DNA from: Dromaius novaehollandiae
Taxonomy: Eukaryota > Chordata > Aves > Casuariiformes > Dromaiidae
Direction of reading: 5' to 3'
Assembly: GCF_036370855.1 (NCBI RefSeq)
Contig: NC_088112.1
Coordinates: 15,244,469 to 15,308,468 of the forward strand
Length of the DNA: 64,000 nt
This document shows, piece by piece, positions 18,345-62,900 of the stretch. The first letter of the stretch is position 1. Each line of letters opens with the position of its first letter. The position numbers and the translations under genes are program-made. The notes below the pieces were generated by a model that saw nothing but the letters and a program-made list of their open reading frames with translations, did not search any database and was not told the DNA's origin.

Positions 18345-18975
18345 CTGCGCCGGCACCGGTGCAGCTGCACGGGGCCACGGGCCGGGCAGGGTCACACACC
18401 AGCTGTGACACTGCAGGAACATATTGCATCTGCACCAATGCGGCTGCACAGGGCCACAGGCTGGACAGGGTCACGCACCAGCCCTGGTGCTGCAGGAACA
18501 TATTGCACCTGCACTAGTGCAGCTGTATGGGGCCACAGGCTGGACAGGGTCACACACCAGCTGTGATACTGCAGGAACATATTGTGCCTGCACCAATGCG
18601 GCTGCACAGGGCCACAGGCTGGACAGGGTCACGCACCAGCCCTGGTGCTGCAGGAACATATTGCGCCTGCACCAGTGCAGCTGCATGGGGCTACGGGCCG
18701 GACAGGACCACACACCAGCTCTGATGCTGCAGCAACGTATCACATCTGCATCAGTGCAGCTGCACAGGAGCCCATAGGCTGGAGAGGGCCACACACTAGC
18801 TGTGACACTGCAGGAACGTATTGCACCTGCACCAATGCAGCTGCATGGCACCACAGGCCAAAGATGGCCACGCGCCAGCTGTGATGGTGCAGGAACATAC
18901 TGCAGCTGCACTGGTGCACAGGAGCCCTTAGGCTGGAGAGGGCCATGCACCAGCTGTGAGGCTGCAGGAAGACAG
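18345..18975. repeat. 79-bp minisatellite, about 8 copies
   Basis: Tandem copies begin at about 18361, 18440, 18519, 18598, 18677, 18756, 18837 and 18902. The spacing is 79 bp for the first six, 81 for the sixth and about 65 for the seventh, which has a deletion. Each unit starts GCAGCTG or GCGGCTG and contains GGGCCACAGG, CAGGGTCACAC-like and TGCAGGAACATATTG segments. Units 1-4 alternate between two subtypes, so units 1-2 and 3-4 form a 158-bp dimer repeat. Copies 2 and 4 differ at only about two positions. The array abuts the NSG2 CpG island on its upstream side. Open frames through it are not coding, because 79 is not a multiple of 3. Confidence 0.95.
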
Positions 18976-49034: not shown

Positions 49035-49262
49035 TTAGTTCCAGCGGAATGAAATATGTCTTGGGCGATCTCCTCCCTCCTTCACCAGGGGTTTGTGGAA
49101 TTCCCTGCCAGCGCGTGAATGGATAGCAGCCCAGCAATATTCACAGTAATACTGCAGACAGGTAACATTAGCACAGAAAAATGGAGCAAATTTTCCACCA
49201 CAACGGGCCCCCTGACATTCATCGCAAAGCTGATCATCCAAGACATATGGCTTAACTTCCAC
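49035..49262 (-). CDS. CPEB4: CPEB4 terminal coding exon (ZZ domain, C-terminus)
   Basis: This exon encodes the last 75 residues and the TAA stop, in phase 0, after an acceptor ATACAG ending at 49263. The peptide begins VEVKPYVLDDQLCDECQGAR and ends RPRHISFRWN. It forms the ZZ-type zinc-binding domain, with Cys pairs CDEC, C-GGKFAPFFC and CLQYYCEYC and a following HSR...FH. This fold is found in all CPEBs and packs against the tandem RRMs. CPEB4 binds the cytoplasmic polyadenylation element UUUUAU in mRNA 3'UTRs and controls poly(A) tail length and translation in meiosis, neurons and stress. All zinc ligands are intact. The match to mammalian CPEB4 is essentially complete as far as I recall. 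It corresponds to about residues 655-729 of the human protein. Confidence 0.97.
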   Translation of the reverse strand: MEVKPYVLDDQLCDECQGARCGGKFAPFFCANVTCLQYYCEYCWAAIHSRAGREFHKPLVKEGGDRPRHISFRWN

Positions 49263-52755: not shown

Positions 52756-52937
52756 CCGTTTATCTATCTCTCCATGCTGCAGCTGAACAAAGCGAGCACT
52801 GATAGCAGCTATGTAACTTTGTTGATTAGAAAATGCAACCCGCCCAGCTCCTTTTGGGTACTTCAGCTCAGGGTCTGTGTCAATTCCAGCATAGCACACC
52901 CCTCCGTACAGGCGATCCATTATCATTGCAAGTTCCA
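52756..52937 (-). CDS. CPEB4: CPEB4 exon: most of RRM2
   Basis: This exon has two leading bases and 60 codons, beginning ELAMIMDRLYGGVCYAGIDT and ending LQHGEIDKR, with a CGG|GTAAGG donor. It carries the RNP1-like KGAGRVAF of the second RRM, plus the CPEB2/3/4-type loop GIDTDPELKYPKGAG. The leading TG completes a Val codon with the last G of the previous exon. The acceptor is TTTGTGGTTTAG, ending at 52938. It corresponds to about residues 595-654. No frameshift or missing motif is seen. Confidence 0.97.
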
Positions 52938-53156: not shown

Positions 53157-53271
53157 CTGCTCGTAAAGGCCGAGGAACACCACCAACAAAAATGGTTTTT
53201 CGTGGGTCAAGAGGCTGTGAACCATCCATAACAAAATCACTATCACTAAGGTTCCAAGGCCGGATCTGAAC
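53157..53271 (-). CDS. CPEB4: CPEB4 exon: inter-RRM linker and start of RRM2
   Basis: This exon has 38 codons plus one base, starting VQIRPWNLSDSDFVMDGSQP and continuing LDPRKTIFVGGVPRPLRA. The RNP2 motif KTIFVGGVP opens the second RRM. VQIRPW is the end of RRM1 and the linker conserved in the CPEB2/3/4 subfamily. The acceptor is TCCATAG, ending at 53272. The donor is GCAG|GTACAC. It lies in phase with both neighbouring exons and corresponds to about residues 556-593. Confidence 0.97.
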
Positions 53272-54227: not shown

Positions 54228-54346
54228 CGGTTTGTCCTTGATAGTGGGGCTGGAGACACAAAGATAGAGTTTTCCGTCTTCTTCAATACATGCATCAATC
54301 AGTGCCTGTACAGAGCTTTCATCTTGGAACAGCAAAAATGCATATC
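54228..54346 (-). CDS. CPEB4: CPEB4 exon: RRM1 core
   Basis: This exon has two leading bases and 39 codons. With the preceding G it reads GYAFLLFQDESSVQALIDAC and continues IEEDGKLYLCVSSPTIKDKP. GYAFLLF is the RNP1 motif of RRM1. The aromatic Y and F contact RNA in this family. The acceptor is CATTTGTAG, ending at 54347, and the donor is CCG|GTAGGT. It is identical to vertebrate CPEB4 as far as I recall, at about residues 516-555. CPEB3 and CPEB2 are very similar here, so assignment to CPEB4 rests mainly on the exon at 57756-57929. Confidence 0.97.
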
Positions 54347-54982: not shown

Positions 54983-55072
54983 CTTTAGGAGGAAAGTAAG
55001 ATTTGCTCTCTGCCTTGTGTGGCCAATCTACAATCAGAGGTCCAAAACGACGAAAACTAGCAGTGATCTCAT
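54983..55072 (-). CDS. CPEB4: CPEB4 exon: RRM1 middle
   Basis: This 90-nt exon has two leading bases, 29 codons and one trailing base: EITASFRRFGPLIVDWPHKA continuing ESKSYFPPK. The leading AT completes Asp with the G of the exon at 57756-57929. The trailing G starts the Gly of the next exon's RNP1. The acceptor is TTTATAG, ending at 55073, and the donor is AAAG|GTAAGT. It is the first helix and second strand of RRM1 and is too short to appear as a notable open frame. Confidence 0.97.
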
Positions 55073-57755: not shown

Positions 57756-57929
57756 CTTCATCAATATCTGGTGGCAGTCCGCCGACAAAGACTTTACGTG
57801 AATACCGTTCCACTCTTTCTCCATTCTGGTGAGAGAAGCAGTGAGGTGATCCTAAACCACTGTGAAGAGTCTGATCCCCACGTCCATCATCCAAGAACCC
57901 GTCTTCCATTGGAAACAGTGAAGACTGAC
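57756..57929 (-). CDS. CPEB4: CPEB4 exon: pre-RRM linker and RNP2 of RRM1
   Basis: This 174-nt exon has two leading bases, 57 codons and one trailing base. It reads QSSLFPMEDGFLDDGRGDQT, then a Ser/His-rich linker (HSGLGSPHCFSHQNGE), then RVERYSRKVFVGGLPPDIDE. KVFVGGLP is RNP2 of RRM1. The linker is specific to CPEB4 and separates it from CPEB2 and CPEB3, which is why I am sure of the paralogue. The acceptor is ACCCCCTCTAG, ending at 57930, and the donor is GAAG|GTATGC. The leading GT joins the last G of the microexon to give Gly. It corresponds to about residues 429-485. Confidence 0.97.
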
Positions 57930-59951
57930 CTAGAGGGGGTTAAAAAAAAATAAATAAAAGAAGAAGGGAAAAAAAAACATACATACTAAGAGAAGAAAGT
58001 GCTGTTTAAATTTAAAAAAAGAAAACCCCACGCTGGCTGCTGTGTTAGCAGGAGAACTGTTTACAATCTTGCCTTTTAATGAGCAGTTATGGTCTCTATA
58101 TCATATGAACCTTATAGGTTCCAGTACCATTCAGTAACTCAAATACATTATTTAAGAGAAAAAGTCACTATCTTCTTCATAACTAAATTACGACTAATGA
58201 AAATTTGAAACAAAACAGTATTTCCAATGGATGCTCAAACTGACTATTTTCCATAATATTTTGTGCTTCTGAACAAATTTCTTTTAAAAGATGCAAAACA
58301 GAAGAGTGTATAAGCCCAATTATTTTCAGGGACTTTCCCAATAGCAGACATTACTCAAACCTAAGCCATATATATCACTTCCCAGTTAACTCCCTACCCT
58401 GAGCAGATACAATTTCACAGTACAGATGGGAAAACAAGGAATTCTACCAGCTAAATACATTACACATATGAATCACCTGGTATCAAAACCCTTCATAAAC
58501 CATCCACTTGTAAATAAAAAAACACCCTAATAAAAACAGTAAGATTCACTGTAAATGCCTGCAAAAGATGCCTGAAAACTAGCCAATACTGTGTAATTCC
58601 TCGGGAAGACCAGGTTTACTTAGATGTTACAAAAGATATTGGTTAATGGACTCACTCTAAGAGAAAATGTTGTAGCATGCTTCTCCTATGCAGTCCAATG
58701 TTCTCCTACTATAAACTTTTATTATAGATTTATTTAATAAGTTTTATTACTTTTAACTAAGATTCTTATTTTGTATAACATCATAAACAGAGCATACAAA
58801 CTTATCCCTTCAGTAACTTCACCCTTTAGTTACAACATTCAATAGTTAGACAATAAACTGAACAGACTTCTACTCATTTAATGGGTGTAACAGGAATAAA
58901 TAAATATATGAAAAGTAAGTAAACACATGAGGTGTGCTAGAAATGTTTGGATACATTTTATTTTTACCTATGATACAGTATACTATGTCTGCCTTTTCAG
59001 AGTTCATTACAATCTAACACAGTAGTGTACTGGTAAGGTTAATTTATCCTGCTCTGTTACTCTTCATTCAAAATGAATTACATTAATTTACCTGATTTTA
59101 AAAACAACTTCTTGAAAACAGGAAATTTGACCAGTTGCAATATCCAAACATTTTCCATGCAAAAATCAGAGAGCCCACAGGTTTAACAAATAAATAAAGA
59201 TCAACAGTCCATAGAATTTATATGAATAAAAACCAAAGACTTGATCAACTTTTTTGAATCTTCAAGAATCTTTTTATGCTTTTAATTAAAGTAACACTTT
59301 GAAAACCAACAATCAACCATAATTCAGCCTATTCCTGTAACTCAGCAAATCTGGCTTTCTACCATGACCAAAATATTGTAATATAGACTTAAACGTGATT
59401 TTGTTTCCCCCCAGTGAATTGATGCATATTTTGTTTGTCTCTTAAGACCCCAATCCTGCAGGTGTTTTTGGAAGGGAGCAGTTCTCCATGCCTAAACAAT
59501 CTTCTTTTAGGTTCATCAACATTACCACTCGTGTTGCATAACTCAACATGCATCCTTGCAGGATCTGACACTTTAACCTAGTAGGCCAGGACAAGTATTC
59601 ACTATACTCTGTACTGCATCAAGAAAACCACCAGTACCCAAAGAACCAAAGATAAACTTCTCCAGTATTGTCATTGGTAACATACACACAATGTAGCTCT
59701 CCAGTGTAAGAATTCATATAGATGATGTCCACTGAAAGGATTATGATCATTTCAGTCTAAATAGTATACTACTCTGGAATACAATGTAATTCAGTTAAAA
59801 TGTTTATTTATGGCATGCAGACTACATAAACTTATGCAAAACTGATGGTTTTTAATCTTAAATTTTGGGATTTGCTTTCTAGTAACAACTTAAGGTTATT
59901 TCTCCCATGAGACATTGTCAACATTAGAAAATTAAATAGGAATACTGTTAC
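57930..59951 (-). other. CPEB4: CPEB4 intron downstream of microexon
   Basis: This 2.0-kb AT-rich intron has a GTAACA donor (59951) and an acceptor at 57930. Intronic sequence next to microexons often carries splicing-factor sites. No further exon was found. Confidence 0.8.
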
Positions 59952-59975
59952 CTCGCCTTCTCCCATATGTCCTTG
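59952..59975 (-). CDS. CPEB4: CPEB4 24-nt neuronal microexon
   Basis: Twenty-four bases lie between an acceptor CATTTAACATGCAG (ending at 59976) and a GAG|GTAACA donor. With split codons on both sides they read (A)RTYGRRR(G), leading straight into QSSLFPMEDG of the next exon, as in mammalian CPEB4. Length, phase (2+21+1) and peptide all agree with the known 24-nt neuronal exon 4. This exon adds a basic patch with a kinase-site-like RRR-G-x-S context. In mammals its inclusion is brain-enriched and is reduced in autism brains. A pyrimidine-rich GTTTTCTTTCTC tract lies 11-22 nt upstream of the exon and a TGC sits just before it. The 51-nt exon that precedes it in mammals was not found between here and 64000. 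Confidence 0.93.
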
Positions 59976-62900
59976 CTGCATGTTAAATGAGAAAGAAAAC
60001 AGCCTTTCAAACATTGTTATAAGGACCAAAAGACCTTGTTTAATCTTCTTTATACTAGCTCAGTGATTCTCAAGCCCTTTCATACTCCAGGTTATTTAAA
60101 TTGGTATTCAAAAGCTTATCTCCCCCACCACCCACAATACCATGCCTTCCTTGCACCATCTCTCGTTACTCATTGATACGAAACATTGATAGGAGGCCAG
60201 CAAAGGATGTACGTATACTCAAGAGACTTTTTGAGAACAGTTTTAGTTCTTAATTTGCACATTCCTGTTAGTATCTATTCCTTACTTCTCTGCTGGATGT
60301 ATGCCTGTTAGTAAATTGATCTTTTCTCATGCACCAGGTCTCTTCACACTCATTCTGCAATGCAACATGCTCCCTACCTCCAGAGCTTCAAGCATACTCG
60401 AACATTGATCTCTGAACTGTCGGAAAAGCCCTAACACAAGGAACGTGAGCGACAATTGTGTTTATTTTTCGTTTGAGATTAGATCGCTAAAAACGCTTTG
60501 TGCAACCCACAAAGTGCGCGGTTAAGTTGTTAGTGGCAAATAACCAGCTAAAAAACTTAAAAGTCAGAGATAACATCTGGGCCACTAAAACTGCTTTTCA
60601 GAGCTCCTGCAGTCTGTGTTCAACAGTATAGATTTTCTTATACTAACTTACAAATTCACCATAATTATTAGACAGCTACCTACTGCCTCCTACTCTTCTT
60701 TCTCCCAAACAAATCAATTCTACCACAAGTGAGTACAACATTTTTCTGTACTGGCTTCCAGGACCTGCTGTCAGAACATGGCCAAACTTTCTAATCAAAC
60801 TTGCACATTCTTTCAGTTTTAAAGATAATCTCATTAAAATCTGTATCTGAAAGGAGGCCAATTGTTTTTGAAACGTGGATCCTCCTGGCAAGCACTATGA
60901 GAAATTCTGAACACATCGCACATTTTATTTTGCTTCCTCTTTCAAAATTGGGGCTGACAATTAGCTCAAGCATTTAAATATTTGTAAACCACAACAAAAC
61001 ATGAGTAGTTTCCTCTTTCAAAATAAAATCATATCAATCCAATTTATTTCATGCTTGTTTAACATCGGTAAGATCATTTACTTCGCTGATCTTTTGCTGA
61101 TAGAGATACTCACACTTAATGCCAAGATGACAAATAAAACCCAAGTCCTAGTGTTCAGACTAGAACATACCCTCAAGTGTTCGTGCACAGACACTAGCTT
61201 TACTGAAGGATCTTAAAGGCTGAGGGCCTTCGCAAGTATAATTTTTCCACAGTGATTTTTAATTTAGAAATTGAAGATACTTATACACTCCTCAAAGGAG
61301 AAAGTTTTAATGAACTCGTCTTTCGTGCAAAACAATCAGTAGGTTTACTGCGTTTCTGACAAAGCTCAGAAGCTTTTGCACGTTTTAGAAACCTTCAAGC
61401 ACTTTCAAAAACAGCCATGCCTATAAAGCCATAAAATCTTGCCTGTGGTTTCTAAATTACTAACAAAACCACACAAACTCCTTTGCTTGGTACACCCATT
61501 CTTGGCAACAAAGCGTTCAGCATAGACACAATTCTCACTGCAGATTTGTGACCACAATTTAGGTCAGCAGACTCCTCACTGCTTTGCCACCTGTGTCACT
61601 CCAGACAATAGGATTTTTCTCCTTTATCAGGATGGAAAAGGAGCTCAGCAACCAGCTTTAAAGCATTTCCAGTGCCAAATATTACTGAAGAGGTTTTGAG
61701 AACTGAATACTAAGATTTTTTTAATTTACAGTAGGAAGTTTTCTGCATTTGCTTCATCTAACCCACAAAATACCAAGATGTGACATTTCAAAACACTTCT
61801 CAGGAGCCACAGACTGTAAACCATCCCTGCGCAATACAGACACAAACTTTCTCTCTGTGTTGAATTCAAAGCTCATCACATGCCATTAATTTCAAGCAGT
61901 GCACTGCAACAGTGAAACAAAAGAAGGCTCTTTTGGCAGGCCAGGAAGCCAGCTAGCTGTAATTCACCCATTCTGTCCCTGCCTGCCAGCATGTCATATT
62001 CAGAGAAATCCCTGCTATGGAAGTGCCCTAGCTAAGCTTTAACACAAACAATACGTTAAGGTAGCTGTCACCAAGAGGAGTAAAAGACGTAATTCTACAG
62101 ATAATTATGCCTGCCCATTCCGCGTGGAGAAATGAGAAAACGGCAATGTGGTTTGGGACTCCTGAAATCTAGTTTTCATTTCTGCATTTCCTTAAAATTT
62201 CAGGAAAATGCCTCAAGGGCTTAGGACAGATTTACTGACCTCATGAGGTATTTGAGCAAGAATTATGTTACAAAACCTATAAAACAGAAAGTGTTTACAC
62301 AACCAGTTCAACTGCTTATTAATAATCCATGAAGAGATGTTTTCCTATACGATCAGTCCAAAATATAAAATGCTATTAAGCAGTTACTTCAATTATTTTG
62401 TCACCTCAGCCCTCCTTGCAACATTTTTGTGCAATAACGTATCTCCAATTAAATGTGCTCAGCTTTTTCTCTCTATAGGAAGCACCGAAATGACTGTCAG
62501 CATGTTGTGCAGAATCCCACATCCACTTCTGTATAAAGTACGTGCAGGCCAGCGACAGAGATCTTGCTGAGGATCCATAAAAAATGTATGAGACAGTTCT
62601 AAGTCCCTTAAGCCTCAAACTTACTACAAGCTTTTTCTACATAAAGATCGCTCTTTAATGGATTTCTTGCTGCCTTCTGCTGGTATGGAGCTACCTATGT
62701 TATGGTAGCGGTTGTAAGGATATTTTGTGCCATTAATTGTGGAGGGTTTAATTACAAAGGCCAGAGCAAGGGGTAGACTTTCAAATGAAGGGACAGCAAG
62801 CAGGAGGATCTGTACGTTTTGTGGAGAATGTCACCCCACCTTTCCAAGACCACAGGACAACCAGGAGAGCTACGCAAGCATCGAACAGCCTGCATATTAA

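Follow-up and report, generated by a model that had tools for sequence, protein, structure and literature searches.

The DNA stretch analyzed here, hereafter called the window, spans 64,000 nucleotides of the emu (Dromaius novaehollandiae) genome and carries on its minus strand a microexon of CPEB4, the exon that follows it and another five coding exons, the last of which ends with the stop codon at 49035. The first two exons of the gene lie beyond the edge of the window and were located in the assembly that holds it. The coding parts of the gene are as follows.

89911-88790 (extended window coordinates, beyond the window edge), minus strand: CPEB4 exon 1, 1122 nt, 374 codons
78226-78145 (extended window coordinates, beyond the window edge), minus strand: CPEB4 exon 2, 82 nt
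59952..59975, minus strand: CPEB4 microexon (exon 4), 24 nt, phase 1, (A)RTYGRRR(G), from the sequence, the joined frame and the genome pattern search
57756..57929, minus strand: CPEB4 exon 5, 174 nt, joining the microexon in frame, from the junction, the 2mki match and the joined frame
54983..55072, minus strand: CPEB4 exon 6, 90 nt, RRM1
54228..54346, minus strand: CPEB4 exon 7, 119 nt
53157..53271, minus strand: CPEB4 exon 8, 115 nt
52756..52937, minus strand: CPEB4 exon 9, 182 nt
49035..49262, minus strand: CPEB4 exon 10, the last coding exon, to the stop codon

Elsewhere in the window, a tandem array of about eight copies of a 79-base unit, visible also as a 158-base unit, occupies positions 18346-18970. 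A search of the window against Rfam at gathering scores returned no matches. A bird source is well supported by globin exons: beta-globin exon 2 has its nearest PDB matches in 2zfb and 3wtg, the chains ranked after them being mostly bird hemoglobins, and the alpha exon agrees with this when six doubled engineered chains heading its list are disregarded.

Read on the minus strand, the layout around the microexon is ...TTTAACATGCAG (intron), CAAGGACATATGGGAGAAGGCGAG (exon) and GTAACA (intron), with AG before and GT after the 24-nt segment (59975-59952). The split codons read (G)CA-RTYGRRR-G(GT), namely A-RTYGRRR-G across the junctions: exon 2 ends in a single G, which the CA of the microexon completes to Ala, and the final G of the microexon forms Gly with the GT of the next exon, which begins GTCAGTCT at 57929. 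A first-pass annotation of this DNA had proposed such an AG/GT-bounded segment, with its split Ala and Gly codons and its exact join to the downstream exon, and our analysis confirms both the segment (on the minus strand and in phase 1) and the join at 57929. No stop codon occurs in the joined exons 1, 2 and 5, either with the microexon or without it. The microexon peptide corresponds to residues 402-409 of joined exons 1, 2, microexon and 5, and ARTYGRRR is reported at residues 403-410 of mammalian neuronal CPEB4 (PMC11417990). The same annotation had named the segment a CPEB4 microexon conserved in phase and peptide, an identity that holds, since the end of exon 5 matches the start of PDB entry 2mki, named CPEB4, at 19 of 19 aligned residues and the microexon encodes ARTYGRRR as in neuronal CPEB4.

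The low score of the microexon donor (see below) might be taken to indicate that the AG-24 nt-GT segment arose by chance or is an unspliced dead relic, but this explanation is exceedingly improbable given the intact reading frame and the expectation of only about 3e-7 such segments in both strands of the window (AG plus the peptide in phase plus GT, under uniform bases). Moreover, the exact 26-mer occurs once in the 1.47-Gb assembly, and a degenerate pattern in which the second residue may be Ser or Thr matches the same assembly at three places, all within CPEB-type genes, versus none for the control. A chance segment was rejected on these three grounds, namely the single 26-mer, the CPEB-only pattern matches and the low expectation.

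We assign a probability of about 0.93 to the reading of 59975-59952 (minus strand) as exon 4 of bird CPEB4, orthologous to a cassette exon of 24 nt that is included mainly in neurons and would be expected to behave likewise in this bird. Exon 4 of mouse Cpeb4 has 24 bp, and exon 1 of that gene codes for 375 residues (PMC3875571); the mammalian exon 4, abbreviated as me4, shares with the present one its length, phase 1, the peptide ARTYGRRR, a residue number differing by one at most and the same neighboring exons. Being orthologous to CPEB4 exon 4, the microexon itself is therefore already known, and as a genome finding its bird copy is expected.

When the exon 5 peptide of this CPEB4 was compared with the whole genome, it was found in three places: this gene (100% identity, the query being its own) and two paralogues with 83% and 76% identity. 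The latter lie on C6 and C4, and we take them to be CPEB3-like and CPEB2-like, respectively, from the forms of their exon 3 and their chromosome positions rather than from a tree. (C4 also harbors the one cytochrome b sequence found, an old nuclear fragment of mitochondrial origin interrupted by several stops, at L031 1501-1995; its PDB neighbors show no clear order.) Both paralogues possess a 24-nt exon that encodes (A)RSYGRRR(G) in the same phase, hence equivalent to the CPEB4 microexon in length and phase 1 but with Ser (ARSYGRRR) in place of the Thr of CPEB4. The elements flanking the CPEB4 microexon that are considered in this comparison, and in that of splicing control, are listed here.

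59976..59983, minus strand: ACATGCAG, the last eight intronic bases before the microexon, with TGC at 59978-59980, identical in the three paralogues
59985..60002, minus strand: pyrimidine-rich tract CTGTTTTCTTTCTCATTT, at -27 to -10 of the microexon, read from the sequence; putative binding site of PTBP1 or U2AF2
59946..59954, minus strand: microexon donor GAG/GTAACA, the lowest of 21 donors by position weight matrix (PWM)
59896..59907, minus strand: TGGGAGAAATAA, 12 nt, found also in the downstream flank of the CPEB3-like (C6) microexon, of doubtful significance
59814..59819, minus strand: TGCATG, an RBFOX-type word at +133 after the microexon donor, weak evidence

The acceptor sequence ACATGCAG is identical at the microexons of CPEB4, the CPEB3-like gene and the CPEB2-like gene of this genome. 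Over the 12 bases ahead of the acceptor AG, the three genes show eight identical columns, including an unbroken run of six that adjoins the AG, versus one to five identical columns and runs of zero to one at six other homologous acceptors. Among 392 mixed triples of non-microexon acceptors, no more than six columns and runs of no more than two were obtained, none equaling eight or six. Drawn from the column make-up, the corresponding P values are approximately 2e-5 (run) and 9e-4 (columns), which are to be read as rough values because the null is small and home-made. The pentamer TGCAG is by itself ordinary, being present in 3/22 other acceptors. We do not press the sharing of TGGGAGAAATAA, because a control pair of exons, exon 8 of the CPEB2-like and CPEB3-like genes, likewise has 12 nt in common. 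Among the matches listed from the open-licence literature, there was no statement of ACATGCAG being common to three CPEB microexons.

The same acceptor region displays candidate features of neuronal splicing control. The upstream pyrimidine tract noticed in the first-pass annotation is indeed present at -27 to -10 and is followed by the TGC at -5 to -3, which the same annotation had likened to SRRM4-type elements; its position agrees with the range of 2-20 nt upstream of the exon reported for the UGC recognized by SRRM4 (PMC12148930). The accompanying remark that this TGC is nearer to the splice site than is typical cannot be sustained, for the position falls within that range, is shared by all three paralogues and resembles that in protrudin exon L, on which SRRM4 is reported to act through a UGC "immediately upstream" (PMC5247714).

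Splice sites were scored with a small, home-made leave-one-out PWM built from the three CPEB genes, in which the CPEB4 microexon acceptor ranks fourth lowest of 24, in line with a weak 3' splice-site region, and the paralogue microexons have ranks 2 and 5 for donors and 5 and 10 for acceptors. Reported hallmarks of eMIC targets are a weak acceptor with a UGC nearby, a long AG exclusion zone and a longer tract containing UCUC, a weak donor being listed for fly targets and not for mammalian ones (PMC8797185). The CPEB4 microexon resembles SRRM3/4-dependent (eMIC) neuronal microexons in having fewer than 30 nt, a length divisible by 3, a pyrimidine tract, a UGC between the tract and the exon and a low-scoring acceptor, but may differ from them in having one TCTC and no long UC repeat, and in an AG exclusion zone of an ordinary 26 nt (vs 13-93 nt at other acceptors here). 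The SRRM_C domain (eMIC, PF15230) was found above cut-off at two genomic loci, L026 and L027 (C17 and C19), which are candidate regulators of the microexon; one of them has a stop codon where the match ends.

On this basis, the pyrimidine tract and the weak splice sites would keep the microexon skipped outside neurons, by repression of the PTBP1 type, and SRRM3/4 would promote its inclusion in neurons via the UGC beside the AG. A contrasting explanation, to which we give little credence, holds that the exon is conserved but constitutive or broadly used, with no neural control in this bird; ACATGCAG could then be kept for basic acceptor function. It would have to be reconciled with the poor splice sites found here, with the neural-only use of the CPEB4 microexon reported in human (PMC4317164) and with the conserved cpeb4 microexon of zebrafish, the inclusion of which is reported to drop by 27 points in an srrm3 mutant (PMC13281805). 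RBFOX was also considered as the main driver: TGCATG is present within 300 nt of 2/3 microexon donors versus 0/18 other donors, but this evidence is weak because 127/911 background tiles carry the word as well (2/3 vs a tile rate of 14%, P approximately 0.05 by hand).

In mouse Cpeb4, an exon 3 of 51 bp precedes the 24-bp exon 4 (PMC3875571). The CPEB2-like and CPEB3-like genes of the emu retain the counterpart of this exon ahead of their microexons, with 51 nt and 57 nt, respectively, whereas in CPEB4 ungapped peptide scans did not recognize it along the intron of 18,169 nt, free of N, that separates exon 2 from the microexon (78144-59976 in extended window coordinates, minus strand). The queries were the CPEB2-like exon 3 peptide of this genome, the CPEB2-like and CPEB3-like peptides jointly and a mammalian CPEB4 exon 3 peptide, which gave best sense scores of 21, 15 and 21 against shuffle maxima of 27 (20 shuffles), 22 (20 shuffles) and 30 (10 shuffles), respectively. 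A single antisense match scored 22.5, barely over the shuffle maximum of its scan, and is not flanked by AG/GT. The positive controls, namely the exons of the CPEB2-like and CPEB3-like genes, were recovered. A strongly diverged exon 3 may nonetheless persist, because the intron contains 31 AG-51 nt-GT segments that are open in phase 1; the unrecognized exon may reflect either loss or strong divergence. Among the matches listed from the open-licence literature, none mentions that birds lack exon 3.

Regarding the protein, inclusion of the microexon would add eight residues, four of them Arg, to the disordered N-terminus of CPEB4; residues 386-425 then carry a net charge of -2 instead of -6. Reportedly, work by Garcia-Cabau and others in 2025 found that me4 keeps CPEB4 assemblies from ageing. 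The densest 24-residue His stretch of bird CPEB4 lies at residues 223-246 and contains nine His. In neuronal CPEB4, me4 is reported to contact a His cluster at residues 229-252 of the disordered N-terminus (PMC11417990); because the His-rich stretch 223-246 lies at the corresponding place, both contact partners are present in the bird. The added residues could accordingly touch the His-rich stretch and so keep CPEB4 assemblies dynamic.

Inclusion would also create the basophilic kinase motif RRRGQS, which spans the junction between the microexon and exon 5 and is found in the inclusion form only, the skipped form lacking it. That the main consequence of splicing is this regulated kinase site (R-x-R-x-x-S) rather than the tuning of condensation seems to us rather unlikely. 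In its favor, the Arg residues of the motif are kept in both paralogues here, and CPEB3 isoforms with exon seven are reported to be phosphorylated by PKA and CaMKII, those without it not (PMC4767366). Equating CPEB3 exon seven with the 24-nt exon is our own reading of a paper in which region letters and sizes disagree (PMC4767366). The work on neuronal CPEB4, on the other hand, emphasizes that me4 touches the His cluster (PMC11417990). A kinase site and the tuning of condensation are mutually compatible.

The evolutionary age of the microexon can be considered along the same lines. Conservation since the amniote ancestor, as the first-pass annotation had it, is too recent an estimate: the exon is probably older than amniotes, given that zebrafish is reported to have a cpeb4 microexon (PMC13281805) and that the same exon is present in two paralogues of this genome. 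We infer that the zebrafish exon is the same as the one described here, the passage concerned giving no length (PMC13281805). Microexon changes in CPEB2, CPEB3 and CPEB4 are reported during mouse brain development (PMC7821500). The shared exon and acceptor suggest, as the simplest reading of a comparison of the three paralogues, descent from one ancestral exon before the split of CPEB2, CPEB3 and CPEB4.

Taken jointly, these observations may be read as follows, at odds that we place slightly short of even: ACATGCAG, whose UGC directly adjoins the AG, would be a fixed regulatory element that came down, along with the 24-nt exon, from the one gene ancestral to CPEB2/3/4; neuronal control of this switch in the disordered region would predate the split; the three exons would form one co-regulated splicing unit; and in this bird lineage the switch of CPEB4 would have become simpler through loss of the neighboring 51-nt exon.

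Exon 4 of CPEB4 is linked to disease, autism being associated with fewer CPEB4 transcripts containing it and lowered translation of CPEB4 targets (PMC8011179). The exon, the His-rich stretch and the acceptor signature are all present in the bird, and the exon has copies in two paralogues; birds may accordingly serve as fair models of the CPEB4 microexon. The ACATGCAG acceptor, in turn, provides a testable cis-element common to three genes.
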